A stretch of 43,541 nt of DNA from Kiritimatiellota bacterium (GCA_014381785.1 JACNKZ010000053.1:1-43541); one strand, 5' to 3'; positions 6,618 to 43,256 are shown, numbered from the stretch's first letter. Notes: generated by a model from the letters alone, not told the origin. Translations and numbers: made by a program.

Positions 6618-6680
6618 TTTTCCCAACCCTTGGAAGCGAAAAAGAAGCCGCCATGCTATGGCTTCCAAGGGTTGGAAAAA
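6618..6680. repeat. Inverted pair of the 15-bp palindrome (hairpin after secretin gene)
   Basis: TCCCAACCCTTGGAA (6621-6635, one mismatch to consensus) and TTCCAAGGGTTGGAA (6663-6677, exact) sit in opposite orientations and extend into each other: TTTTCCCAACCCTTGGAAGC (6618-6637) is almost the reverse complement of 6661-6680. The resulting ~20-bp stem has a 23-nt loop. It starts 6 bp after the secretin stop and may act as a terminator or mRNA end, although no T-run follows. Confidence 0.85.
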
Positions 6681-6693
6681 TGGAGCTGAAAAG

Positions 6694-6708
6694 TTCCAAC
6701 CATTGGAA
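6694..6708 (+). repeat. 15-bp palindrome copy 2 bp before a start codon
   Basis: TTCCAACCATTGGAA, exact consensus, NCM orientation on plus, ending 2 bp before the ATG of the large secreted protein. Its GGAA is the only Shine-Dalgarno-like sequence there, so the element would overlap the ribosome-binding region. Confidence 0.9.
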
Positions 6709-6710
6709 AC

Positions 6711-9700
6711 ATGAACAAATTTCTGACAGCCTGCCTGATCGCCTGCGCCCTCTGCGGTGCGGCATCCGCTACGACCATTCTTTCAGAAGGATTTGAAACC
6801 TTTCTATTATCTGGGTGGATAAATACCTCTGTAGATCAATATGCTTCATATTCACACACTGGTAGCTACAGTGCTCGATTCAACGCCGTAGACGACTCAC
6901 TGGTCACCCCCCCGCTGACCAATGCCCAAACACTGACATTCTGGACCTATACAACATCTGACTCGCCAACATTCAATGTTGAGACCTCTGCCAGCGCATC
7001 CGGACCATGGACTACTGCAACTGGCAGCCCGTTCTCAAATACCAGCGGTCTGTGGACCGAACGAAGCATTAACCTCGCTTCTTCCGGAACCCTTTACATC
7101 CGATTCTCAAAAAGCGGTTCCGGTTATGTGTATATCGATGACGTTTTGGTTGAAGATGGCGGAACCCCCGCCAACAGCGCACCGGTTCTGGCGGCAATCG
7201 GCAATCAGTCGATACCTGTCGGCAACGCACTCAACTTCACGGTCAGCGCTGCCGATACGGATAATGACGACATCATTCTTTCCGTCAGCAACCTGCCGCC
7301 CGGGGCGGTCTTCAACACCGTCACCAATGCCGGAACCGTTTCCAATACCTTCAGCTGGGCCAGCGCCTCGCCGATCGGTGTGTACACCTCCACCTTCTAT
7401 GCCGCCGACAACAACACCAACGATTCTGAAACCATCACGATCACGGTTACCAACCTGCCATCATCGCCGCCGCTGACCAGCACCCCATGGAACGTATTCT
7501 ATAACCTTCCCTACCAATCCAACTCCGGCAGTGACTATCCCGGCCAATTTGTGATTCGCGATGTGCTGACGGACCGGATTGATGCGCTACAAAACGGCGA
7601 CTCCGCCATTCTGTCCACCTTCACCTTTTCGGCCGAGTACGGTGCCGGAACCATTATGAACGCCATGAGCGATGCGCTTGATCGCGGCGCGCTGATTAGC
7701 TTTGTCGCCGATGGCGATATCAGCCTCGGAACCGTTTACGGCGGAACGAACTCGCTGCTCGACCTGTCGACCCGCACCGTCAATCCGCTGATGCTTTCGG
7801 TCGACGGATCGACCAGCGGCATCATGCACGACAAACTCGGACTGTTCGATTACGGCGGAAGCAACCAGTGGGTGTTCATCGCTTCGTGGAACTTTACACT
7901 GGCAGCCAGTGCCGACCAGTGGAACATCGCCCTGGAAGCGCGCAGCCCGTCGCTCTACAGTATCTACATAAGTGAGGCCGCCGAGCTGCTCGCCGGCCGC
8001 TTCCACGATGATCCGGCCAAGTCGCACGCCCACGACGGTTCGACGTTCTCGCTCGACGGATCATGGGGAACCAACTTCGTTCGTTTCGCCCCCTACCCGG
8101 ACGACACGCCGGGCGGTAACAATGCCGAAACCGACATCATCAACCTGATTGATCAGGCGCAAAGCAACATCGTCTTCGCGCTCAATAAATTCAACCGCCC
8201 GCTCATCCGTGACGCGCTGATTTCCGCCGCCAACCGCGGAGCCGACATCAAGGGGGTTATGCCGCGCAGCGACACCGATCCCGGCGGCGTCTCCGACGAT
8301 GTGTATAACGCGCTGACCAACTACGTTGAATTTCTACCCGCCTACGCAGAGGCGGATTATTCCGTCCTCGACGGCGGCGAATCCGACTTGATCCATGCCA
8401 AATATATGGTGATCGATCCGCAGAGCACCAACGCCGTCGTCATTCATGGCTCGGCCAACTGGACCGCTGAAGCTCTCGTGAACGACAACGACAATGACGA
8501 AAACACCGTCATCCTCCGTCACAACGGGATCGCCGAAGCATTCTACGACCACTTCCAGCGCATCACCGGAACCGGCGCCTACAGTGAAGGCAACTCCACA
8601 ATCGTCTCGTGGGACTTTGCGGACGGAGATCAGATTGCCGACGGCGGCATCGCCGCCAATGCCGCACAAACGGTCATACGCGTTCCGGCTCCGTCCAGCT
8701 ACACCTACACAGCGGACGCGCTCTCCTGCAACGGATGGAGCAGCGGCAGCGGAACCACATACTGGGAAACATCCTTCAATACAACCAACCACATCGACAT
8801 CAAAGTCTCCTCCAGGCAGCTGGCCAGCTCCACCGGCCCGGCCGACTTCAAGCTGCAGTATAAAATCGGTGCCGACGGAACTTATGCTGACGTGCCGTAC
8901 AGCGACGTGCACGTGCCTGACGGCGGCAACGGGTTGCTGACCCGTGTTCTGCTGCCAGAGGGATGTGAGAACCAACCCGCTGTTTTCCTGCACTGGATCA
9001 TGACCTCCGATATCGCAGCCAACGGCGGCAGCATCGGCTCCAGCGGCGCGGGCCGCATTGATGACATCATCATTACCGGAACCGCCTACAATCAGCCGCC
9101 GGCGCTCGATCCAATTGGCAACCGAACCGTCTTTGTGGGAGAAGCCCTGCAGTTCACCGTCACCGCCGCCGACCCGGTCGATGGCGATCTGTTCATCTTG
9201 AGCGCAACCAACCTGCCGACCGGAGCGGTATTCACCAACGACACCTTCACCTGGGACATCGCCGCGCCGATTGGCGTGTATGATGTCACCTTTACAGCAA
9301 CCGATACGAACGGGTCGGACAGCGCAACAATCGCAATAACCGTATTACAAAAACCACGACTGCTTATTTCAGAAATTGCTGACCCGTCCGAAAGTGCGGA
9401 CTTCCGATTTGTTGAGCTCTATAATGCCGGCACCAACACCGTGGATCTGGCGGACGGCAACTGGTATCTGAGCCGTCAGAACAACGGCGGCGAAAGCTGG
9501 TATGAAGTCGCGCTGACCGGGATCGTGGCCGCTGCGGAAACGTATGTAATCGCCAAGGGTCAGGACGAGTTTCTGGCCGCCTACGGATTCGCCCCCCAAC
9601 AGGAAGGCTCTGCAGCTGACGGAAACGGCAATGATGCGGTTTACATCTTTTACGGCGGCAACCACACAAACGGCATTCTGATCGATATCTACGGCGAACC

Positions 9701-11537
9701 TGACACCGACGGTATTGATACCGCATGGGATTACGAAGACAGCCGTGCCGTGCGCAATAACAACATTCAGCAGCCCAACACGACATGGACCGCTTCGGAA
9801 TGGGCCATCACCACCGGCGCGACAACCAACGATATGTCGCCCGGCGTTCACGGACCGACCCCCGAATTCCAAGGGTTGGAAAATCAATTTGTATTCCTCG
9901 GCGACAACCTCAGCCTGATCGTGACCGCCGTCAATACCGTGCGCACCGACGTGATCACCCTCTCCGCCACCGCCCTGCCCGCCGGCGCAACGTTCCCGCC
10001 CGCCACCGGCACCAACACCGCTTCGAGCACACTGAACTGGGCGATTCCGGCCGCAGGGGTCTACACCGCAACCTTCGCGGCGGAAGGAGAGGTCGACGCC
10101 ACGGTCGAATCGATCACTATCACCGTTTCCAGCACTGCAGAAATCGATGGTAAATTCTACGGGTGGAAAAGCGGCACGATTGTGAAACTGGATAACGGCC
10201 AGTTCTGGCGCAACACCGGCGGAGCCAGCTCCATCATCGACCCGCCACTGCGCAACCCGCAAGTGACCGTCACCAACGTGCTGACAACCCGCCGCATGTT
10301 CGTTGAAAACGTGGCGAGCTACACAACCGTCGAACGGATCGCCGTTACAGAGAGTTTTGTGACCAACGCCTTCAGCGGCCTGCACAACGGCAACATCTAT
10401 GAACTGGGCGACGGCACCGTCTGGGAGCAAACGACCTTCGAAAACATCAGCTCTTCTGCAGATTCGGTGACCACCTGGCGCTGGACCGAAAACTCAAAAA
10501 CGTATATGCGCTTTCTGGACCGCGACGACGTCGTCATCGGAACCTGCCAGGTTGTCGCCTCTGAGCTGCCGGACAGCGGAGCCGTCATCAGCGAAATCGA
10601 CGGGTATTTCCGTGGCTGGAAAAACGACCGGGTTTTCGCGCTGGCTAACGGGGAGTTCTGGCAACAAACCGTCTCCGACAGTTCGTCCGACACGCTCTAC
10701 CGCCCGGAGGTGACCCTAACCAACTATCTTGAAACCGGCACCTGGCGGATGTACGTCGATAGGGCAAGCGCCCCCGGCTATGTGGAAGTACAGCAGCTAA
10801 CCAATGTTACCCGTACAAAGATCGACGGCACCTTCTACGGCTTCGGCATCAGGGAATTTTTCCACCTGCAGAACGGAGAGTGGTGGCGGCAGACCTCATT
10901 CGAAACATCGGCCTCGACCCGCTCCAGCCCGGAAGTTTTGATCTGGGAAGAAAGCGGCAACTTCCAGTTCGAAATGCCGGACGAGGGCCGGACAGTCACG
11001 GCACAAAAACTAACGGTGACGGCAGAAAGCTCCGTCACCAATACGTTCAACGGCCTGCACTATGGCAACACCTACCAGCTCGCCAACGGAGAGGACTGGT
11101 TGCAGGTCAGTTTCGAAAACATCAGCTCCAATGCGGTCAATCCGGATGCAATGCTCTGGGTCGACGGCAACGACACCAACCTGCTTCTGCGCGGATCCGG
11201 TGATCAAGAAATCGGCAATTGCACTGTGGCGGATCCCACCGCCGACGGCGACGGCGACCGGATTGCCAATGCCGCGGAAATCATCGCCGGAACCGATCTG
11301 GCGGACCGTGATTCCTTCTTCCAGATCACCGAAGCTGTCATCGACGGCAGCAGACATTGCGTGCTGAGCTGGGATGCTGTTGAGGGCCGCCGCTACACCA
11401 TTCTATGGGCCGCATCGCTCGATCAGGCATTCCATCCGCAGGCAACCGTCGATGCGCCGACCAACAGCTGGACCGACACAGAGCACACAACCGACACGGA
11501 AGGCTTCTATGAAATTGAAGTCAGCCTGATCCCGTAA
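6711..11537 (+). CDS. Giant secreted protein: PLD-like nuclease/phosphodiesterase domain, Ig-like, lamin-tail and repeat modules
   Basis: 1608 residues with a signal peptide (MNKFLTACLIACALCGAASA). In order: an N-terminal jelly-roll-like domain (about 25-150); an Ig/cadherin-like module (about 155-245, IGNQSIPVGNALNFTV); a phospholipase D-like region with two HKD motifs, HDKLGLFD (H373, K375) followed by ASWN, and HAKYMVID (H562, K564) followed by GSANW; a second jelly-roll-like domain (about 630-790); a second Ig-like module (about 795-880); a lamin-tail domain (about 884-1010, LLISEIADPSESADFRFVELYN); a third Ig-like module; five ~50-residue repeats (about 1144-1500, F-Y/S-G-W/L...LxNGxxW); and a C-terminal calcium-loop-like DGDGDRIANAAEIIAGTD with a terminal beta domain. 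Two HKD motifs normally build one PLD active site. The target is unknown; extracellular nucleic acid or lipid is possible. Confidence 0.85.
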   Translation: MNKFLTACLIACALCGAASATTILSEGFETFLLSGWINTSVDQYASYSHTGSYSARFNAVDDSLVTPPLTNAQTLTFWTYTTSDSPTFNVETSASASGPWTTATGSPFSNTSGLWTERSINLASSGTLYIRFSKSGSGYVYIDDVLVEDGGTPANSAPVLAAIGNQSIPVGNALNFTVSAADTDNDDIILSVSNLPPGAVFNTVTNAGTVSNTFSWASASPIGVYTSTFYAADNNTNDSETITITVTNLPSSPPLTSTPWNVFYNLPYQSNSGSDYPGQFVIRDVLTDRIDALQNGDSAILSTFTFSAEYGAGTIMNAMSDALDRGALISFVADGDISLGTVYGGTNSLLDLSTRTVNPLMLSVDGSTSGIMHDKLGLFDYGGSNQWVFIASWNFTLAASADQWNIALEARSPSLYSIYISEAAELLAGRFHDDPAKSHAHDGSTFSLDGSWGTNFVRFAPYPDDTPGGNNAETDIINLIDQAQSNIVFALNKFNRPLIRDALISAANRGADIKGVMPRSDTDPGGVSDDVYNALTNYVEFLPAYAEADYSVLDGGESDLIHAKYMVIDPQSTNAVVIHGSANWTAEALVNDNDNDENTVILRHNGIAEAFYDHFQRITGTGAYSEGNSTIVSWDFADGDQIADGGIAANAAQTVIRVPAPSSYTYTADALSCNGWSSGSGTTYWETSFNTTNHIDIKVSSRQLASSTGPADFKLQYKIGADGTYADVPYSDVHVPDGGNGLLTRVLLPEGCENQPAVFLHWIMTSDIAANGGSIGSSGAGRIDDIIITGTAYNQPPALDPIGNRTVFVGEALQFTVTAADPVDGDLFILSATNLPTGAVFTNDTFTWDIAAPIGVYDVTFTATDTNGSDSATIAITVLQKPRLLISEIADPSESADFRFVELYNAGTNTVDLADGNWYLSRQNNGGESWYEVALTGIVAAAETYVIAKGQDEFLAAYGFAPQQEGSAADGNGNDAVYIFYGGNHTNGILIDIYGEPDTDGIDTAWDYEDSRAVRNNNIQQPNTTWTASEWAITTGATTNDMSPGVHGPTPEFQGLENQFVFLGDNLSLIVTAVNTVRTDVITLSATALPAGATFPPATGTNTASSTLNWAIPAAGVYTATFAAEGEVDATVESITITVSSTAEIDGKFYGWKSGTIVKLDNGQFWRNTGGASSIIDPPLRNPQVTVTNVLTTRRMFVENVASYTTVERIAVTESFVTNAFSGLHNGNIYELGDGTVWEQTTFENISSSADSVTTWRWTENSKTYMRFLDRDDVVIGTCQVVASELPDSGAVISEIDGYFRGWKNDRVFALANGEFWQQTVSDSSSDTLYRPEVTLTNYLETGTWRMYVDRASAPGYVEVQQLTNVTRTKIDGTFYGFGIREFFHLQNGEWWRQTSFETSASTRSSPEVLIWEESGNFQFEMPDEGRTVTAQKLTVTAESSVTNTFNGLHYGNTYQLANGEDWLQVSFENISSNAVNPDAMLWVDGNDTNLLLRGSGDQEIGNCTVADPTADGDGDRIANAAEIIAGTDLADRDSFFQITEAVIDGSRHCVLSWDAVEGRRYTILWAASLDQAFHPQATVDAPTNSWTDTEHTTDTEGFYEIEVSLIP
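9867..9881 (-). repeat. 15-bp palindrome inside the PLD-like gene
   Basis: TTCCAAGGGTTGGAA read as TTC CAA GGG TTG GAA (FQGLE), between the lamin-tail domain and the third Ig-like module. It is in the KGN orientation relative to coding, like all other coding copies. Confidence 0.9.
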
Positions 11538-11832
11538 GCAACCATTTTCCAAACCTTGGAAGGTTTCCACACTCACGCTCATATATCCTATACCTATATA
11601 GGTTCGGGAATTCCTATTTTATAAATCATTAACAGAAAGGTGTTAATGCTGATTTTAGGCCATATTTTTATGCCATTACACATGCGGGGTATTACATTGC
11701 ATTATATGTTTACAGACAACAGGTTGCGCCTTTTTAAACCCATTTTTTAAAACCTAAAAAATTTGCAATCAGGCGCTTGTGATCTACGAACTCCGGGATG
11801 CCGCACCTCGACCATACGACATTCCCCTCTCC
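11538..11832. other. Convergent spacer, AT-rich, one palindrome copy
   Basis: 295 bp between the PLD-like gene and yraN. An exact TTCCAAACCTTGGAA copy lies at 11547-11561, 10 bp after the stop codon. A small palindrome CCTATACCTATATAGG follows at 11588-11603. The rest (11610-11780) is notably AT-rich with runs of A and T; I see no gene, tRNA or convincing terminator. Confidence 0.6.
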
Positions 11833-15320: not shown

Positions 15321-17093
15321 CTAAACCCGTTCTTTCTCGGTGTATTTTGTATGTAGCAATTCATGCGAAAGGTGGCCGAGCGGCGCGCCGAGGAAATCCT
15401 CATAGAGCTTAGCAACCGCCTCGTTCTCATGCGACTTGCGCAACGTCTTGCCCTCGTCCTCCGCATAAATAGCCGCAATGCGCTTCTTGCGAACTTCATC
15501 GGTAGTGATACGCGGCTGTCCGCCGCCACCGATGCAACCGCCGGGGCAGGTCATCACCTCGACGAAGTGATAACTCGCCTCGCCGGCGCGGATTCGCTCA
15601 ATCAGCTTGCGGGCATTGCCCAGCGTGTGCACGACCGCAATCTTGGCAGTAACGCCTTCGAGGAAGCTCCATGCGGGCACCGTGCCTTCGATGGTGATCT
15701 CGGCCTCTTTGATGCCGTCGAGTCCGGCAACCGGTGTCACATGCAGGTTGTCGAACGGCAGTTCGCGGCCAGTGACCAGCTCGTAGGCGGTGCGCAGCGC
15801 GGCTTCCATCACTCCGCCGGTGTTGGCGAAGATATCGGCGGCGCCGGAACCGAGTCCGAGCGGTGCATCCATTTCGGAATCTTCCAATGCCTGGAAGTCG
15901 ATCCCGGCCTGGGTGATCATCTTGCCCAACTCGCGGGTGGTGAGCACAACATCGACATCCTGCACGCCGCTGGAATTCATTTCGGCGCGCGCAGCTTCAA
16001 ACTTTTTGGCCGTGCAGGGCATTACGGAAACCATGAACATCTCTTCCGGCTTTTTGCCGAGCTTCTGGGCATAATAGGTTTTCACCATGGCGCCCATCAT
16101 CTGCTGCGGCGATTTGCAGGTGGAGAGGTTCGGAAGCATATCTGGATAGAAATATTCCATGAACTGAATCCAACCGGGCGAGCAGCTGGTAAACATCGGC
16201 AGCGCGACGTCTTCTTTGTCGACCAACGCCTTCTTCAAGCGCGTCAGCAATTCCGTCCCCTCTTCCATAATGGTGAGGTCGGCCGAAAAATTGGTGTCGA
16301 ACACGGCGTCGAATCCCATGCGGCGTAGCGCGGTGGTCATCTTGCCGGTGACGAGCGTGCCGGGCTCCATACCGAAGCATTCGCCGAGGGCGGCGCGAAT
16401 GGCGGGCGCGGTCTGTACGACAACGGTTTTCGTTGGATCGTCGAGCGCCGCCCAGACCTCGTCGGTCTGGTCACGCTCGGAGATGGCTCCGACGGGACAG
16501 ACGGCCGCACACTGACCACACTGTACGCAGGTCACCGTGTCTAGGTTTTGCGCGAAGGCGGGGCCGATGGTGGTCTTAAAACCGCGGCTTTGCGGGAAGA
16601 GCGCAGATACGCTCTGTATTGCGGTACAGACCGTTACGCAACGGCGGCAGGAAATGCACTTAGCGCTGTCTCGGACGAGTCCGACCATGCTGTTATCCTT
16701 ACAGCGCAGCGCTTTTTCGCCTTCGTAACGAAGCTCCTTGATGCCAAGGTCGTGGGCGAGATTTTGCAATTCACAGTCTTCGTTGCGGTCGCAGGTCTGG
16801 CAATCACCATCGTGCTCGGAGAGCAGCAGCTCAACAACAACCTTGCGGGCTTCGCGCACGCGGCGGTTGTTGGTGGATACTTTCATACCCTCGGAAACAG
16901 GCATAACGCAGGAGGCCACCAGATCGTGCACCCCTTCGATCTCGACCAGACAGACGCGGCATGCGCCGATGGCCTGGATCTTTTCGAGGTAGCACAGCGT
17001 GGGAATTTTGATGCCTGCCTGCTTGCAGGCCTCCAGCACGGAGAGTCCTTCAGCAACCTCAATCGGACTATTATCAATTGTTAGATTAATCAT
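15321..17093 (-). CDS. hydA: [FeFe] hydrogenase catalytic subunit, HydABC (group A3-like)
   Basis: 590 residues. N-terminal NuoG-like [2Fe-2S] domain (IPTLCYL...GACRVC), His-ligated [4Fe-4S] domain (HDGDCQTC...C), two [4Fe-4S] ferredoxin motifs (CISCRRCVTVC, CVQCGQCAAVC), then the H-cluster domain. L1 is TSCSPGW (T302-W308), L2 MPCTAKKFE (C360), L3 MTCPGGCIGGGGQP (C516, C520); a short small-subunit-like helical tail ends the protein. L1 has Ser where the textbook motif TSCCPxW has a second Cys, a form I recall from multimeric hydrogenases. It makes or oxidises H2, normally bifurcating electrons between NAD(P)H and ferredoxin with HydB and HydC. It starts 28 bp after hydB with AAGGAA as ribosome site. 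The HydE/F/G maturases are not in the window. Confidence 0.95.
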   Translation of the reverse strand: MINLTIDNSPIEVAEGLSVLEACKQAGIKIPTLCYLEKIQAIGACRVCLVEIEGVHDLVASCVMPVSEGMKVSTNNRRVREARKVVVELLLSEHDGDCQTCDRNEDCELQNLAHDLGIKELRYEGEKALRCKDNSMVGLVRDSAKCISCRRCVTVCTAIQSVSALFPQSRGFKTTIGPAFAQNLDTVTCVQCGQCAAVCPVGAISERDQTDEVWAALDDPTKTVVVQTAPAIRAALGECFGMEPGTLVTGKMTTALRRMGFDAVFDTNFSADLTIMEEGTELLTRLKKALVDKEDVALPMFTSCSPGWIQFMEYFYPDMLPNLSTCKSPQQMMGAMVKTYYAQKLGKKPEEMFMVSVMPCTAKKFEAARAEMNSSGVQDVDVVLTTRELGKMITQAGIDFQALEDSEMDAPLGLGSGAADIFANTGGVMEAALRTAYELVTGRELPFDNLHVTPVAGLDGIKEAEITIEGTVPAWSFLEGVTAKIAVVHTLGNARKLIERIRAGEASYHFVEVMTCPGGCIGGGGQPRITTDEVRKKRIAAIYAEDEGKTLRKSHENEAVAKLYEDFLGAPLGHLSHELLHTKYTEKERV

Positions 17094-20888: not shown

Positions 20889-21411
20889 GCCAACACCTTG
20901 CTAAAAGTTCGGATTTAGACGAAATCGCGCTAAACCCCGTGCTTTTCCAATCCTTGGAAAAATACCAGACGGAATTCCAGGCATTGGAAAAGCCAGCGGT
21001 TTTAACCCCACTTGGTTTCCAATGTGTGGAAAAGAAATATCAGTTGCTTCCACCCAAGACGTAATCGAGAGATGCCGCACGGATGTGCGGCAAGGAGCGC
21101 AGCGACTGGTTTAACGAAGTGCCGTGGCAATGCTTGGAAAAATTTAGCCGCGCCCCCATGCTAGGGGTCCACCCGAGACGAAGGTGAGAGAGGCTGACAC
21201 ACTCGACCAACGGGAGAGAGGCCACGCGGATGTGTGGCAAGGGGCGCAGCGACTGGCAATTGTGACGCCAACGCGTTGGAGCAAAGCGGAAACATAATTT
21301 ACCACCGGTAAATAATGAGCGCAGCGAATGGTTCAACGAAGTGTTTTGGAATGAAGTGGAAAAATAATTTTCCATCGGCGAATAATGACCAGAGGGAACG
21401 GTTCAGTGGCA
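20889..21411. other. Divergent hydC-dinB spacer with several repeats
   Basis: 523 bp with no gene. It contains palindrome copies at 20945-20959 (exact), 20975-20989 and 21017-21031 (one mismatch each) and a partial one near 21127. A separate repeat has hairpins TGCCGCAC-GGAT-GTGCGGCA (21073-21092) and GCCACGC-GGAT-GTGTGGC (21221-21238), each followed by CAAGG(A/G)GCGCAGCGACTGG. A third GAGCGCAGCGAATGG copy lies at 21315-21329, and an ACGAAGTG block follows two of the three. No promoter for dinB is obvious. Confidence 0.65.
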
Positions 21412-22596: not shown

Positions 22597-23506
22597 CAGC
22601 CCCCTCCTTTGCCCAGTCTGCCGCGACGCCCTCTGTCTGGAAGCGCGAACGTATCACTGCGCAAACAGTCACTCGTTTGATTTGGCCAAAGAAGGTTATG
22701 TGAACCTGCTGCTGAGCCATCAGCGTAAATCCAAAAACCCCGGCGACGACAAGGCGATGATTCAGGCGCGGCGGCGCTTTTTTGATTCCGGAGCGTTCGA
22801 TCCCGTCACAAAAGCCATCCACCATTCGACAGCCCACATTCCACATCCCACCATTCTCGACTGTGGTTGCGGCGAAGGTCATTTTCTCGGGGCGCTGAGT
22901 GCCTCCCTTCGATCCGGCTCCGTCGGAGACGTCGCCCCACCTTCAGATTCCGAACTCGCAGGTAGGGCGAGCCTCTCCGAGCGAGCCGAGCAGTTGTTTG
23001 GGATAGATATTTCCAAAGAGGCGATCCGCTGCGCGGCGAAGCGCTATAAGGACGTCACGTGGATTGTCGCCAACGGCATGCGCAAGCTGCCGCTTGCGGA
23101 CCATTCGATGGACTGCATTCTGAGCGTGCTGGCTCCGCGTAACACGGAGGAGTTTGCCCGCGTCCTCAAGCCGGAGGGACAACTCATTCTCGGCGTGCCC
23201 GGCCCCAACCATTTGATTGAACTGCGCACCCTGCTCAACGCCAGCGCCAGTGACTTTGAGGAAAAGGCCGATGAGGCCGCCATAAAATGCGCTCCACTGT
23301 TTGCTGAAACGGCGCGTGAGGCTGTGTCGTATGAAGTCGCGCTCAACAAAGAGCAAATCACGGATCTGATTCAAATGACCCCGATTTTCTGGAACTCCGC
23401 TCCGGACGCTAAAGAAAAGGCACAACGGCTCAACGAACTGAACATCACCATCAGCTTTGCGCTTTTGAGCCTGCAACCATCCGGTCGAGTCCGGCGTAAT
23501 CCTTGA
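22589..23506 (+). CDS. rlmA: RlmA-type 23S rRNA (guanine-N1)-methyltransferase with inserted segment
   Basis: 305 residues. The N-terminal zinc site uses C8, C11, C24 and H28 (CPVC...HCANSH), then SFDLAKEGYVNLL and the SAM-binding motif ILDCGCGEGHFLGAL (about 89-103), GIDISKEAIRCAAKRY and ILSVLAPRNTEEFARVLKPEG. This is the RlmA(I)/(II) layout, which methylates G745 or G748 of 23S rRNA. Between the SAM glycine loop and GIDIS lie about 25 extra residues (about 104-135, rich in Ser, Ala and Arg) that family members lack; they coincide with a DNA hairpin repeat (22923-22980). The function is probably retained because the insert falls in a loop. The 3' end overlaps the opposing prmC by 56 bp. Confidence 0.88.
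   Translation: MTNSPLLCPVCRDALCLEARTYHCANSHSFDLAKEGYVNLLLSHQRKSKNPGDDKAMIQARRRFFDSGAFDPVTKAIHHSTAHIPHPTILDCGCGEGHFLGALSASLRSGSVGDVAPPSDSELAGRASLSERAEQLFGIDISKEAIRCAAKRYKDVTWIVANGMRKLPLADHSMDCILSVLAPRNTEEFARVLKPEGQLILGVPGPNHLIELRTLLNASASDFEEKADEAAIKCAPLFAETAREAVSYEVALNKEQITDLIQMTPIFWNSAPDAKEKAQRLNELNITISFALLSLQPSGRVRRNP
22923..22980. repeat. Hairpin repeat inserted in frame in rlmA
   Basis: Arms TCGGAGACGTCGCCCCACC (22923-22941) and GGTAGGGCGAGCCTCTCCGA (22961-22980) are nearly reverse complements. The right arm matches the reverse complement of 43201-43228 (GGTAGGGCGGGCCTCGCCGA on minus), an intergenic copy. It codes for about 20 residues within the extra loop of RlmA. Confidence 0.7.
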
Positions 23507-24293
23507 TGATCCGAACGTTCTGGAATCCGACTGCTTCCAAGCATTGGAAAACGACTTCGCCTTGATCGTAACCGATTTCGAGGAAGAGGCCGCCGCCGGG
23601 CTTAAGAACCCGCGCGGCCTGTTCGGCCAGCGGAACAATCAGATCCATCCCCCGCTCACCACCGTCGAGCGCGAGCTGCGGCTCGTGGTCGCGCACGCAG
23701 GGTTCGAGGTTTTTCCAAACCTTGGAAAAAATGTACGGCGGATTGGAAACGACCACGTCGAAACTATTTTCCTCGATTCCTTCGAGCAGATTATTTTCCA
23801 AACATTGGAACTTTTCAGAGAGATCTAGCCGATCGGCATTTTCCTGTGCCAGCGCCAGCGCTTCCGGCGAAATATCGATGGCGGTCACCTGCGCGTTCGG
23901 CAGTTCGTGCGCCAGCGCCAGACCGATGCAGCCCGTTCCAGTGCAAACGTCGACAATGGCAAGTGGCGAGTGGCTGGTGTCGAATGTCGAAAGAACCTCC
24001 TCCACAAGCAACTCGGTTTCGGGGCGGGGAATAAGTGCGCGCGAGTCACAAGCGATTTCCAGGCCTCGGAAATCGACGCGGCCAATGATGTATTGGATCG
24101 GCTCGCCCTGTTCCGCGCGAGCGATCAGTTTTTCCAGCTCGGCCTCCTGCTCAACCGTCAGCTCGCGAAAATAGATTTCGAGTGGCTTGCAGCCGAGTAC
24201 ATGCGCGGCCAGCTCTTCGACCGAGCGTTTCGGGTTGCCGTTCCCTGCTGCCTCAAGCCGCGCTTCGAACTTTTGGAATTTCTGCATGCTCAT
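23451..24293 (-). CDS. prmC: Release factor glutamine methyltransferase
   Basis: 280 residues; methylates the Gln of the GGQ motif in RF1 and RF2 using SAM. N-terminal helical domain with YFRELTVEQEAELEKLI; PIQYIIGRVDFRGLEI; RPETELLVEEVL; SAM motif VDVCTGTGCIGLALA; AIDISPEALALAQEN; catalytic NPPY in VVSNPPYIF; ALDGGERGMDL. Three copies of the 15-bp palindrome lie within the gene, read as FQCLE, SKVWK and FQCLE at positions where homologues have other residues of the same number. The ATG at 24293 overlaps the tilS stop by 4 nt. The last 56 bp overlap the convergent rlmA. Confidence 0.95.
   Translation of the reverse strand: MSMQKFQKFEARLEAAGNGNPKRSVEELAAHVLGCKPLEIYFRELTVEQEAELEKLIARAEQGEPIQYIIGRVDFRGLEIACDSRALIPRPETELLVEEVLSTFDTSHSPLAIVDVCTGTGCIGLALAHELPNAQVTAIDISPEALALAQENADRLDLSEKFQCLENNLLEGIEENSFDVVVSNPPYIFSKVWKNLEPCVRDHEPQLALDGGERGMDLIVPLAEQAARVLKPGGGLFLEIGYDQGEVVFQCLEAVGFQNVRIIKDYAGLDRMVAGSKAQS
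23535..23810 (+). repeat. Three exact 15-bp palindromes inside prmC
   Basis: Copies at 23535-23549 (centre GCA), 23713-23727 (ACC) and 23796-23810 (ACA). All are NCM on plus, so KGN in the coding direction. Encoded peptides: FQCLE (phase 1), SKVWK (phase 3) and FQCLE (phase 1). The middle copy sits three residues after the catalytic NPPY. Confidence 0.95.
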
Positions 24294-25516
24294 TTCTTCA
24301 GTTCACAAAAGAGGTGCAGCGCTGGCTCGTCATCTGACGAGAGATCCCATCCACGGGCGATGCGGTATCCGGGCAGCCAGACGATTTCGCCGCCGCACTC
24401 AGCCACCGGCCACTCCGCGCGCTGCGCCTGTGGAATTTTAAGATCGGTGAAAATGTCCTGCAATTTCTTCGAGCCGTCCATTCCATAGGGATTCATGCGG
24501 TCGCCGGGACGCGCCGGGCGGATGATCACTTCGCGGCCGTCAACTTTGGCGAGCGAAATAGAGGCCTGCCATTTTCCGCGCAGGATGCCGCTACTCTCTT
24601 CGATTCTGATTTTTCCAATCCTTGGAAAACTTTCAGAATCAGCACGCAGTGTTCCGTACTCGTTGATCATGCGCAGGCCTTCGAGGTCGAGAACCGTTGT
24701 ACCGGCGGTACGGGCGGAAAATTCGATGAACTGCTCGACCGCGTCGAAGGTCGGAGCGGAGCCGTGTTCGATCAGCCAGTCGCGCGCTTCGCGGCGGCGG
24801 GCGGATTTTTCGGGATGGTCTTCCTCGTCGCGCAGAATGTCCATGGTGCGCAGAATATTTTCAGCGGCGCGCTCATTAATTTCATTAAGCACCGGTAGAA
24901 TCTGATGCCGCACCCGGTTGCGCGGGATGGTTTCGTCGGCGTTGCTCGCATCCTCGCGCCACTCGAGGCCCTCTGTTTCCAACCATTGGAAAATTTCGCT
25001 CCGCCGGATTCCAAGCATTGGACGAAGCAATTGCATTGCGGCCAGCTTTTGGGAACTCCTCATGCCGCCTAATCCGGCGGGGCCAGCTCCGCGGGCGGCG
25101 CGTAGAAAAAAGGTTTCGAGCTGATCGTCCGCGTGATGGGCAAGGCAGATGACAGAGGTCAGGAGACAGGAGTCAGAGATCAGGGAGCGGAAAAACGCAT
25201 GGCGGGCTTCGCGGGCGGCCATTTCGAGGGAAAGGCCTTTTTCTTTGGCGAGCGCGGGAATGTCAGCTTTAGCCGTGATGCACTCCACGCCAAGTTGTGC
25301 ACAGAGATCTTTGACGAACTGCTCGTCGGCATCGGCCTGCGCGCCGCGGATCGAATGATTTAGATGCGCGGCGGTCACCTTGTATCCGAGCCGGTGCAAA
25401 ATGCGCAGCAACGCGACGGAATCGACCCCGCCGGAAACCCCGACGATCACTTCAGCTCCATCGGGAATCAGATGTTCCCGTTTAATGGCCGCTTTGACTT
25501 TTTCGATCAGATTCAT
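24290..25516 (-). CDS. tilS: tRNA(Ile)-lysidine synthase
   Basis: 408 residues from ATG 25516 (a TTG 9 bp upstream is possible). TilS uses ATP and lysine to convert C34 of tRNA-Ile(CAU) to lysidine. The PP-loop motif VIVGVSGGVDSVALLRIL (about 23-40) and HLNHSIRGAQADADEQFV are diagnostic; then CLAHHADDQLETFFLRAARGAGPAGLGGM, LLRPMLGIRRSEI and WREDASNAD. The C-terminal domain (WLPGYRIARGWDLS) is present. Two exact palindromes (24613-24627 read as FPRIGK; 24977-24991 read as FQWLE) and one near copy (25009-25023 in the conserved RPMLGIR) lie in the gene. It is followed by prmC with a 4-nt overlap. Confidence 0.95.
   Translation of the reverse strand: MNLIEKVKAAIKREHLIPDGAEVIVGVSGGVDSVALLRILHRLGYKVTAAHLNHSIRGAQADADEQFVKDLCAQLGVECITAKADIPALAKEKGLSLEMAAREARHAFFRSLISDSCLLTSVICLAHHADDQLETFFLRAARGAGPAGLGGMRSSQKLAAMQLLRPMLGIRRSEIFQWLETEGLEWREDASNADETIPRNRVRHQILPVLNEINERAAENILRTMDILRDEEDHPEKSARRREARDWLIEHGSAPTFDAVEQFIEFSARTAGTTVLDLEGLRMINEYGTLRADSESFPRIGKIRIEESSGILRGKWQASISLAKVDGREVIIRPARPGDRMNPYGMDGSKKLQDIFTDLKIPQAQRAEWPVAECGGEIVWLPGYRIARGWDLSSDDEPALHLFCELKK
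24613..25023 (+). repeat. Palindrome copies inside tilS
   Basis: 24613-24627 TTCCAATCCTTGGAA (exact), 24977-24991 TTCCAACCATTGGAA (exact) and 25009-25023 TTCCAAGCATTGGAC (one mismatch). All are NCM on plus, hence KGN in the coding direction. They use two reading phases. Confidence 0.9.
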
Positions 25517-25592
25517 TGCCCGCAAATTAACGTGAAACGGCCCCTATGACCATCCAAATTAGAATGGTCCACAAAACGTCAATGACGATCAG

Positions 25593-26798
25593 CTAGTCTT
25601 GAATAAGAATCTGGCCGGTGCCGAGGAGGTAGTCGGCGCGGGCTGCGTTGACATCGCGCCGAACGTCGAGCAGGCGGCGATCAGCTTGAACGATCCGTTC
25701 CTGAAGCTTCATCCACTCGTCGGGGGCCCCGGCGGCGTATTCTTGCAGCATCTCAATCTCTTGTTGCGCCTCCGCGGCCAGCGCATCCATCTCCTGCCGA
25801 TGCATCTGCCACTCTTCGATTGCGTTATTGAGGTTGAAAGCCGCCTGCCTTACCTGCAATGCAATCGCATCCTGCGAGGCATCAACTGAAACTCGCCGCA
25901 ACGCCTGCTCGGCCAACGCCTGGCGCTTCTTTGAGCCGCTGAGTGAAAAGATGGGCAAGCTGACGGCGGCCTGAATGCGCCACTCTTCTGCGCTGTCGGC
26001 ATACCCCGCTTGCACATAGCTAAACCAGGGAATCCGCTCGGCGTCCGCTTGCTGCACACGGGACTGAGCCTGCTGAAGCTGGGCATGCAATAATTGAAGA
26101 TCAGGGCGCAATTCGAGGGCGAGCTGATCCACCGTCTCGCTGTCTATGAGGACGGCCGGCTCGACCTCCGGCAACGGCTCGAGCCGCAGCGACTCGACCG
26201 GCCGGGCAATTCGCTCAGCAAGCTGGCCCTGGATTCGATCCATATCGCATCGCAGCGTACGCGCCTCTCGCTGGGCGTCGCGAAGCTCCCAGCGGAACAA
26301 CAGCGCATCGGTCGAAGTTTTCATCGCCGCATCAACCTGCTGACAAATCACGTCGGCCCGCTGTTGTTTGATCTCAATCAAACGGGTCACCAGGGCGAGT
26401 TCCTTTTCCAAACATTGGAACTCCCGATAGAGCTGAAAAATCTCTGTGGCAACTTGAATGCGCCCCATTTGCATCTGAGCGGTTGATGCCGCAGTTTGAG
26501 ACGCACGCTCCAGCCCGTCGGCATGAACCCGCCACGGGTGCGGAAGATAAAAGCGAATCGCGGAGTCTATGTAGTCTTCATCCGCATCCACACTAGGCTC
26601 CAAACGGAGTTCAGGATCCCTCCAAACGGCGGCCGATTCCTGCCGCAGTTGTGCAATGCTTAAATCCGCCCTGCCCGAAAGCAACCGAATGTCGTTTTCG
26701 AGTGCCAGTTCGATGGCTGAACTCAGCGAAACCGGAGGTTCCGCCCAGGCCGTCCAAACGAAAAGAGCACAAATCAAGAACAACACGAAACGGATCAT
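25593..26798 (-). CDS. TolC-like outer-membrane efflux protein
   Basis: 401 residues with a signal peptide (MIRFVLFLICALFVWTAWA). Long alpha-helical, Gln/Ala/Leu-rich text in two similar halves is typical of the outer-membrane efflux protein family (TolC/NodT); the half-repeat starts are SLSSAIELALENDIRLL and DQLALELRPDLQLLHAQLQQ. TolC trimers form a channel across the outer membrane and periplasm. At 401 residues it is slightly short. One exact palindrome copy lies within it (26406-26420, FQCLE). Its ATG overlaps the HlyD-like gene's stop by 4 nt; last gene of the VTC operon. No inner-membrane ABC or RND pump is in the operon. Confidence 0.85.
   Translation of the reverse strand: MIRFVLFLICALFVWTAWAEPPVSLSSAIELALENDIRLLSGRADLSIAQLRQESAAVWRDPELRLEPSVDADEDYIDSAIRFYLPHPWRVHADGLERASQTAASTAQMQMGRIQVATEIFQLYREFQCLEKELALVTRLIEIKQQRADVICQQVDAAMKTSTDALLFRWELRDAQREARTLRCDMDRIQGQLAERIARPVESLRLEPLPEVEPAVLIDSETVDQLALELRPDLQLLHAQLQQAQSRVQQADAERIPWFSYVQAGYADSAEEWRIQAAVSLPIFSLSGSKKRQALAEQALRRVSVDASQDAIALQVRQAAFNLNNAIEEWQMHRQEMDALAAEAQQEIEMLQEYAAGAPDEWMKLQERIVQADRRLLDVRRDVNAARADYLLGTGQILIQD
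26406..26420 (+). repeat. Exact palindrome inside the TolC-like gene
   Basis: TTCCAAACATTGGAA on plus, read on the coding strand as TTC CAA TGT TTG GAA (FQCLE). Confidence 0.9.
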
Positions 26799-29228: not shown

Positions 29229-29584
29229 AACCTTTCAGTGTAGAGAATTGCTTCTTGCTTCGCAAAAACAATCTGATTGATAGAACTTCATTCATTCGTA
29301 CCCACCCAGTGGAAACGAAGCACCCGATCACTAGCCTTGGTAGCCAATAGAACTTCCAAACCTTGGGAAATTATCTAGCGCAATTTCCAAGGTTTGGAAG
29401 TTTCACCGGAGGTATAGGCAACCCCTTCGGCTCCCGCAAAATAACCGCTCATCCCATGCCTCTACAGATATGGGATAATTTAACTGTCAAAATGCTTATC
29501 ATAAGTGTGTTACTAGATTTTAACTCTAATAATTGATCGGGAGGAAGAAACCCCATTCCGACCCGCTGGGTTTCATTCAATCAA
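29229..29584. other. Spacer upstream of the VTC operon with hairpins
   Basis: 356 bp without a gene. An inverted palindrome pair, CTTCCAAACCTTGGGAAAT (29353-29371, one extra G) and ATTTCCAAGGTTTGGAAG (29383-29400), forms a ~18-bp stem with a short loop. A second hairpin ATCCCAT/ATGGGAT lies at about 29451-29475. A third, GAAACCC-N14-GGGTTTC (29547-29574), lies 10 bp after the serS stop and is its likely terminator. No promoter is clear. Confidence 0.65.
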
Positions 29585-34514: not shown

Positions 34515-34682
34515 TTACTCGTATCCGCTCATGCCGGGAATGCCGATGGACCCTTCCCACGTGGCGGGAGTGCCCCACGGCATATCGGAATATTCGCGCG
34601 GCGTGCCGTCCTCATAGGTTGGGGCGGCGCAACCGGCAATGGCGGCGATGAGCAGGAGTAGTGCTGTAATTTTTCCAAACAT
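34515..34682 (-). CDS. Small lipoprotein of unknown function
   Basis: 55 residues from ATG 34682. MFGKITALLLLIAAIAGCAAP has the form of a type II signal peptide with lipobox AIAGC (cleavage before C18). The mature part is only ~38 residues, acidic and Gly/Pro-rich (YEDGTPREYSDMPWGTPATW). The start codon lies inside a degenerate palindrome copy (34673-34687). An alternative TTG start at 34709 would add nine residues and lies in another copy. Its stop is a few bases from the shared terminator at 34481-34511. Such short lipoproteins are common and uncharacterised. Confidence 0.65.
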   Translation of the reverse strand: MFGKITALLLLIAAIAGCAAPTYEDGTPREYSDMPWGTPATWEGSIGIPGMSGYE

Positions 34683-34759
34683 TGAAAAACATATGCTCTT
34701 TTTTTCCAATGGTTGGAAGCCAATTGCATGGGCACGCGCAGTTTTTCCAATGGTTGGAA
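34673..34759. repeat. Three palindrome copies in the metF-lipoprotein gap
   Basis: 34673-34687 TTCCAAACATTGAAA (one mismatch, containing the lipoprotein ATG in the coding phase), 34704-34718 TTCCAATGGTTGGAA (exact) and 34745-34759 TTCCAATGGTTGGAA (exact, identical centre). The two exact copies are 41 bp apart, same orientation, both preceded by TTTT. Confidence 0.9.
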
Positions 34760-39289: not shown

Positions 39290-39304
39290 TTCCAAACATT
39301 GGAA
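39290..39304 (+). repeat. Exact palindrome before polA
   Basis: TTCCAAACATTGGAA, 20 bp before the polA ATG. It is NCM in the direction of transcription, the opposite of coding copies, which supports its being outside the gene. Confidence 0.9.
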
Positions 39305-42467: not shown

Positions 42468-42525
42468 TTCCAGACATTGGAAGCGCAATGCGGGCGCCGC
42501 GGCTCGCGGCTTCCAATGCCTGGAA
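42468..42525. repeat. Inverted palindrome pair before the YchJ-like gene
   Basis: TTCCAGACATTGGAA (42468-42482) and TTCCAATGCCTGGAA (42511-42525), opposite orientation, each with one mismatch at the same symmetrical position (A to G, position 6 in NCM direction). They can pair to a long hairpin around a GC-rich loop. Confidence 0.85.
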
Positions 42526-42961: not shown

Positions 42962-43200
42962 TCTCGTAATTTTCCAAGCATTGGAACCGCAACGAGGCAT
43001 CGCGTCTACGTTTTCCAATGTCTGGAATTTTGAACCGTGCCTTCGGCACTATTTCCTTCGGAAATTATTTATCGCTTCGCTTTCAGGCGCTTTCTGCGCG
43101 TTTTTGCGGCTGAATATTTTCCAATGTCTGGAACTTTTCGTGTGGTTCGTGTTTTTCGTGGTGGAAATTCTTCCAATGTTTGGAAACCGGTGCGGAGCGC

Positions 43201-43228
43201 GGCGGCCTCGGCGAGGCCCGCCCTACCT
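43201..43228. repeat. GC-rich hairpin repeat related to the rlmA insert
   Basis: GGCGGCCTCGGCGAGGCCCGCC is self-complementary, followed by CTACC. Its reverse complement GGTAGGGCGGGCCTCGCCGA differs in two places from 22961-22980 in rlmA. Confidence 0.65.
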
Positions 43229-43256
43229 GACTTTTCCAAGGTCTGGAACGTTTTCC

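Follow-up and report, generated by a model that had tools for sequence, protein, structure and literature searches.

The window analysed here, a stretch of 43,541 nucleotides from a Kiritimatiellota bacterium, contains numerous copies of a 15-bp palindrome, which in many Kiritimatiellia-type bacteria is likely to mark the sites of a cooperative, probably DNA-wrapping, binding protein acting over the whole chromosome. The palindrome is abundant, restricted to one class, conserved at the level of DNA and placed in phase with the double helix, and it shows preference for neither strand nor promoter nor gene family. To our knowledge, the presence of hundreds of exact palindromes per genome, the recoding inside conserved genes and a strict 10.5-bp phasing are combined in no known system, and neither this three-way combination nor the motif itself was found in the literature searched, whose coverage was incomplete.

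Form and abundance of the palindrome

In the genome to which the window belongs (G000; 2,219,109 bases), TTCCAA-N3-TTGGAA occurs in 595 exact copies, as compared to 0.08 copies expected from base composition and a single copy of the reversed-pattern control. The window contains 17 exact copies and about a dozen with one mismatch, and all other spacer lengths from 0 to 8 gave zero exact copies over the whole window. The middle base is G or C in 134 of 136 exact G000 sites, drawn from a sample of about one quarter of the genome with genes called by a simple hexamer caller. A middle G is usually preceded by T or G, and the flanks of the site continue as runs of T and A; the consensus is TTTTCCAA-NSN-TTGGAAAA, with S denoting the middle G or C. 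Among one-mismatch sites of this sample, oriented by the central G, 23 of about 80 have C in place of T at the first base of the 3' half-site. This is the commonest change, and its mirror image in the 5' half-site is rare; in G009, a relative with a closed chromosome, both half-sites show it. Recognition of the site may be slightly asymmetric.

Nine coding copies had been listed in an earlier reading made from the sequence alone, and all of them exist, in three reading phases that specify FQ.LE, SKVWK and FPRIGK. That sequence-only reading had missed a degenerate copy at the start of prmC (24264), which is perfect in three relatives, as well as the phasing of all closely neighbouring sites at 10.5 bp, which is visible within the window itself. 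The genes and sites concerned are as follows.

6621-6708: intergenic array of sites at 6621, 6663 and 6694 (spacings 42 and 31 bp)
6711-11537, + strand: PLD/LTD-domain gene, holding the site at 9867
9867-9881, + strand: exact site in the PLD/LTD-domain gene (FQGLE)
11547-11561: exact site directly 3' of the PLD gene
15321-17093, - strand: [FeFe]-hydrogenase gene, holding the near copy at 15882
15882-15896, + strand: near site in the [FeFe]-hydrogenase gene, in the orientation opposite to the gene
20945-21031: intergenic array of sites at 20945, 20975 and 21017 (spacings 30 and 42 bp)
23451-24293, - strand: prmC gene, holding the sites at 23535, 23713 and 23796
23535-23549, - strand: exact prmC site, coding strand TTCCAATGCTTGGAA (FQCLE), exact there in five other genomes of the genus
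23713-23727, - strand: exact prmC site, coding strand TTCCAAGGTTTGGAA (SKVWK), 178 bp (17 turns) from 23535
23796-23810, - strand: exact prmC site, coding strand TTCCAATGTTTGGAA (FQCLE), 83 bp (8 turns) from 23713
24264-24278, - strand: degenerate site (one mismatch) at the prmC start, exact in G010, G004 and G013
24290-25525, - strand: tilS gene, holding the sites at 24613 and 24977 and the near copy at 25009
24613-24627, - strand: exact tilS site (FPRIGK), in a variable-length loop
24977-24991, - strand: exact tilS site (FQWLE)
25009-25023, - strand: near tilS site (RPMLGI), 32 bp from 24977, in the identical one-mismatch form in seven relatives
25593-26798, - strand: TolC-like (OEP) gene, holding the site at 26406
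26406-26420, - strand: exact site in the TolC-like (OEP) gene (FQCLE)
29354-29399: intergenic pair of sites at 29354 and 29385 (spacing 31 bp)
34673-34759: array of sites at 34673 (a near copy, at the start of a small ORF), 34704 and 34745 (spacings 31 and 41 bp)
39290-39304: exact site immediately upstream of the likely polA start
42468-42525: pair of near sites at 42468 and 42511 (spacing 43 bp)
42972-43248: array of sites at 42972, 43013, 43119, 43171 and 43234 (spacings 41, 106, 52 and 63 bp)

Distribution among genomes and along the chromosome

Among 241 genomes across the phylum, those outside the class contain 0-4 copies, which is the chance level, and those within it contain 0 to 1339 copies per genome, the motif having been gained or lost even within single families and genera. 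In family f20, genus g26 has 411-459 copies while its sister genus g27 has none, and counts in genus g1 range from 62 to 793. The class name is taken from the titles of matched records, the named matches being Kiritimatiellae, Kiritimatiellales, 'Lentisphaerae' and 'Verrucomicrobia' MAGs. In motif-free relatives, no substitute palindrome (dialect) was found. The motif is also present in a real phage, IMGVR_UViG_3300035698_006241 (L210, L211), which has a terminase, a portal and a major head protein. Nine copies, each exact or with one mismatch, form three arrays in which neighbours are 31, 32 or 41 bp apart, and two of these arrays overlap predicted ORFs.

On the closed G009 chromosome (3.9 Mb), only one of the 24 stretches of 20 kb that were sampled is without sites, and a macrodomain site of the MatP/matS type was rejected on the basis of this spread. 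Exact sites of G000 are about 4.5-fold denser between genes than within genes and are sparser only in the first 30 bp upstream of start codons. These features bear on a quite unlikely alternative, namely that the palindromes serve as operators for a global regulator of transcription whose regulon would be very large. Regulators of, for example, the Lrp type typically have cooperative pairs of palindromes separated by three turns (PMC2995911), and many arrays are located 30-150 bp upstream of start codons. However, site density in convergent regions, which have no promoters, equals or exceeds that in divergent regions, sites are common deep within genes, and no recurrent gene families were found beside arrays that could serve as targets. 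Lrp/AsnC, considered as the putative binder, is represented as a rule by a single orthologue in motif-rich and motif-free genomes alike, and alignment of these orthologues revealed a similar helix-turn-helix with no difference between the two groups. Among the other families considered, the Y1 transposase does not follow the presence of the motif, and ComEC, found in nearly all genomes whether motif-rich or not, shows no evident correspondence with it.

Arrays in genomes that are otherwise poor in sites bring in a self mark or recombination site, according to which arrays tag the organism's own DNA or serve as entry points of islands. In G054, with five copies, site pairs bracket a type III restriction-modification island (L254:1332-12228, G054:C28), with GTCGCGAAGGTTCCAA common to both ends. 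The sole two exact copies in the 3.5 Mb of G050 form one 31-bp pair adjoining a type IIG restriction gene (L291:4000-4045, G050:C392), and in G056 a triplet with 32-bp spacing (L255:7392-7470, G056:C30) overlaps or adjoins two ORFs, one for a truncated cyclase (CBASS-like) and one RhuM-like; the carriage of arrays by phages would also fit. However, this pattern is seen in three genomes only, arrays in G102, G211 and G118 adjoin ordinary genes, and an empty-site comparison for the G054 island yielded no informative homologue. Hitch-hiking on DNA of a motif-rich donor accounts for these observations as well, and a self mark or recombination site is considered very unlikely.

Coding copies arise by substitution

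Comparison of homologous genes indicates that the sites arise by substitution and are selected at the DNA level. This had been proposed in the sequence-only reading, and it is borne out by the gap-free alignment of prmC, the recurrence of the same codon positions and the conservation of synonymous codons. In an alignment of PrmC homologues from 30 genomes, four site positions are found in the genus, none of which is gapped inside except in G009, where the start is missing. Sites in prmC occupy identical codon positions across species with the 178- and 83-bp spacings preserved, and in genomes of a second family the identical prmC codons likewise hold sites, exact or near. Most site positions in an alignment of tilS homologues behave in the same way, such that replacement of residues without gaps, as claimed earlier, holds for prmC and most of tilS and fails at tilS 24613, located in the variable-length loop. 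Where residues are identical between species, the codon is also identical in 79% of cases inside prmC sites vs 51% outside, and in 62% inside tilS sites vs 43% outside. The FQ.LE phase requires CAA and TTG, which in the sample represent 25% of Gln and 10% of Leu codons, respectively. The tilS gene of G009 (L310/L322) contains an insertion of 14 residues (42 bp, four turns), which is a tandem repeat of the FQWLE site.

The mode of origin also bears on mobile palindromes of the REP kind, propagated by a Y1 (RAYT) transposase, with which short palindromes, intergenic arrays and the dispersed related copies that constitute the G057 arrays are in agreement. However, both motif-rich and motif-free genomes contain matches to the Y1 transposase, G000 spacers are unique, coding copies replace residues gap-free in prmC homologues, and spread of this kind leaves the phasing unexplained, making such elements hardly credible as the source.

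Neighbouring sites are in phase with the DNA helix

Distances between neighbouring sites cluster around multiples of 10.5 bp (31/32, 41/42, 52, 63, 83, 105 and 178 bp), both intragenic and intergenic and in several families. Spacings in the window (42, 31, 30, 42, 178, 83, 32, 31, 31, 41, 43, 41, 106, 52 and 63 bp) give R = 0.92 with p ~4e-6, although pairs related by descent are counted separately and such p-values are optimistic. The same phasing is observed in four genomes sampled without selection (G000, G048, G057 and G010), in G009 and in the named relatives, from which 114 stretches were used. Pooling of all data sets gives distances between adjacent sites of 31 bp (147 times), 32 bp (148 times), 41-43 bp (13), 21-22 bp (11), 62-64 bp (9) and 83 bp (4); since the named-relative stretches were fetched by a 31/32-bp pattern, their 31/32 counts are selected, while the other spacings and the even split between 31 and 32 are not. 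When the 31/32 class is omitted, the best period for the remaining 60 adjacent pairs of G000 and G009 (35-200 bp) is 10.5 bp and R is 0.72, a value equalled by 0 of 2000 random sets at any period from 6 to 16. Intragenic pairs are phased in G000 (R = 0.85, n = 24) and in G009 (R = 0.87, n = 19), and so are intergenic pairs. In one G057 array, the spacings alternate as 31, 32, 31, 32, 31, 32, with a mean of 31.5 bp corresponding to three turns. Spacers in G000 are unrelated in sequence, only 13 of 136 sites being within any repeat. The arrays of G057 (L046-L049) contain as many as seven sites and have spacers in common; they represent dispersed copies related to one another, and some are located at contig ends.

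From this phasing we infer that proteins are bound on one face of the helix. Phasing by turns of B-form DNA is a requirement of cooperative binding on one face, and it is unexpected for an uptake signal or for RNA. An uptake signal, a palindrome read by a competence receptor as are DUS and USS and spread by biased uptake and recombination, nevertheless constitutes the main rival, because uptake sequences share everything except palindromy and phasing. The density of sites, their coding and non-coding spread, random orientation, origin by substitution and conserved positions resemble those of uptake sequences (PMC1939737). Furthermore, ComEC is encoded in nearly all genomes examined, and in site-poor genomes site-bearing pieces are found next to laterally acquired defence genes. 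However, neither 10.5-bp phasing nor three-turn arrays are predicted by uptake, DUS and USS are not palindromes (PMC1939737), ComEC is also present in site-free genomes, and arrays occur in a phage. The likeness to uptake sequences drawn in the sequence-only reading extends to abundance and coding placement and stops at the phasing, and an uptake signal appears unlikely.

Orientation is fixed by neither transcription nor replication

Coding copies had earlier been described as always one way round. The hydrogenase near copy at 15882-15896 reads in the opposite direction, and the bias disappears genome-wide: outside the window, exact coding copies from the pooled data sets divide into 103 with the gene and 103 against it. 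The corresponding numbers are 44 with and 33 against in the sampled G000 stretches (37 and 32 with the window excluded), 23 and 26 in G009, and 43 and 45 in the named relatives, and of 112 neighbouring pairs 56 have both sites in one orientation, the number that chance would give. In prmC and tilS comparisons, orientation flips at orthologous positions between species; one position in tilS has ACC, CCC, TCC, TGT or TGC as its centre depending on the species, the orientation changing while the site is kept. The suggestion that the site is read relative to transcription or acts in RNA is unsupported, because the strand bias on which it was based is absent in all three data sets.

An RNA hairpin or terminator with post-transcriptional action could fold with a 3-nt loop, and arrays often closely follow stop codons. 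However, a strand preference is absent, coding-strand variants that break the fold (A.C, 22) and those that keep it (G.U, 18) are about equally frequent, the hairpin is followed by A with no T run on either strand, and helical phasing of DNA is left unexplained, such that action as RNA is scarcely conceivable. A replication-polar site of the KOPS or Chi type was also rejected, since both orientations occur on both arms of G009 and orientation in G000 is independent of skew; similarly, sequence stretches gave both orientations where TGT-centred sites were considered to run in one direction per arm. TGT remains mildly overrepresented on the G-rich strand, with TGT 3-mers themselves being in 1.49-fold excess.

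A proposed cooperative chromosome-wide protein

Selection on DNA, binding on one face as suggested by the phasing, chromosome-wide spread and independence from genes would all be explained by a cooperative chromosome-wide protein. Protein binding, oligomerisation and an architectural (nucleoid-associated) role rather than uptake or regulation are what these features point to. In the mechanism proposed, one sequence-specific protein would recognise TTTTCCAA-NSN-TTGGAAAA in double-stranded DNA, with single sites occupied by dimers and adjacent dimers binding jointly to sites on one helix face, most commonly at a pitch of three turns (31.5 bp), and the DNA along arrays would probably be bent or wrapped. 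Point substitutions would create and maintain sites wherever the sequence permits, freely between genes and at tolerant codons within them. What counts against this mechanism is that spacings from two turns to many are all in use, such that no fixed geometry follows for a single complex. A broader reading, in which helix-phased palindromes, read by a wrapping protein over the whole chromosome, constitute a chromatin-like code for which genes are recoded and which phages copy, as a self mark or a nucleoid scaffold, is possible but doubtful.

The phasing provides a concrete biochemical prediction, namely a cooperative protein with a three-turn pitch. Since the motif is abruptly present or absent among close relatives, such a protein should be findable by comparison of proteomes, which would open up chromosome organisation in a little-studied phylum.

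Comparison with known systems

Palindromes bound by one chromosome-shaping protein are represented by matS/MatP and parS/ParB, which are few and confined to one region. The proposed role of the motif resembles theirs in that one protein would shape the chromosome through palindromes, but the motif is spread chromosome-wide in phased arrays. NrdR boxes are tandem palindromes about three turns apart, few per genome and located upstream of nrd genes; the tandem arrangement and its pitch are shared with the motif, whereas copy number, confinement to the vicinity of nrd genes and sequence differ. As with REP/BIME elements, the palindromes are abundant and form intergenic arrays, but they are without conserved outer sequence and without insertion, have a large coding fraction and are phased. 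Neisseriaceae DUS and Pasteurellaceae USS likewise occur in hundreds of genic and intergenic copies, arise by substitution and are unbiased in orientation, and differ from the motif in that the latter is palindromic over 15 bp, forms arrays with a 10.5-bp phase and is present in a phage. Lrp/AsnC-type regulators (Ss-LrpB, FL11 and Ptr2) bind arrays of palindromes, each of 13-15 bp, that face the same side of the DNA at intervals of two or three turns (PMC2995911), and these arrays share this arrangement with the motif. However, they serve few promoters, as compared to 600-1300 copies of the motif per rich genome, also in coding DNA, and although the single Lrp orthologue is much alike in motif-rich and motif-free genomes, Lrp-type regulators represent the closest geometric model for the motif.
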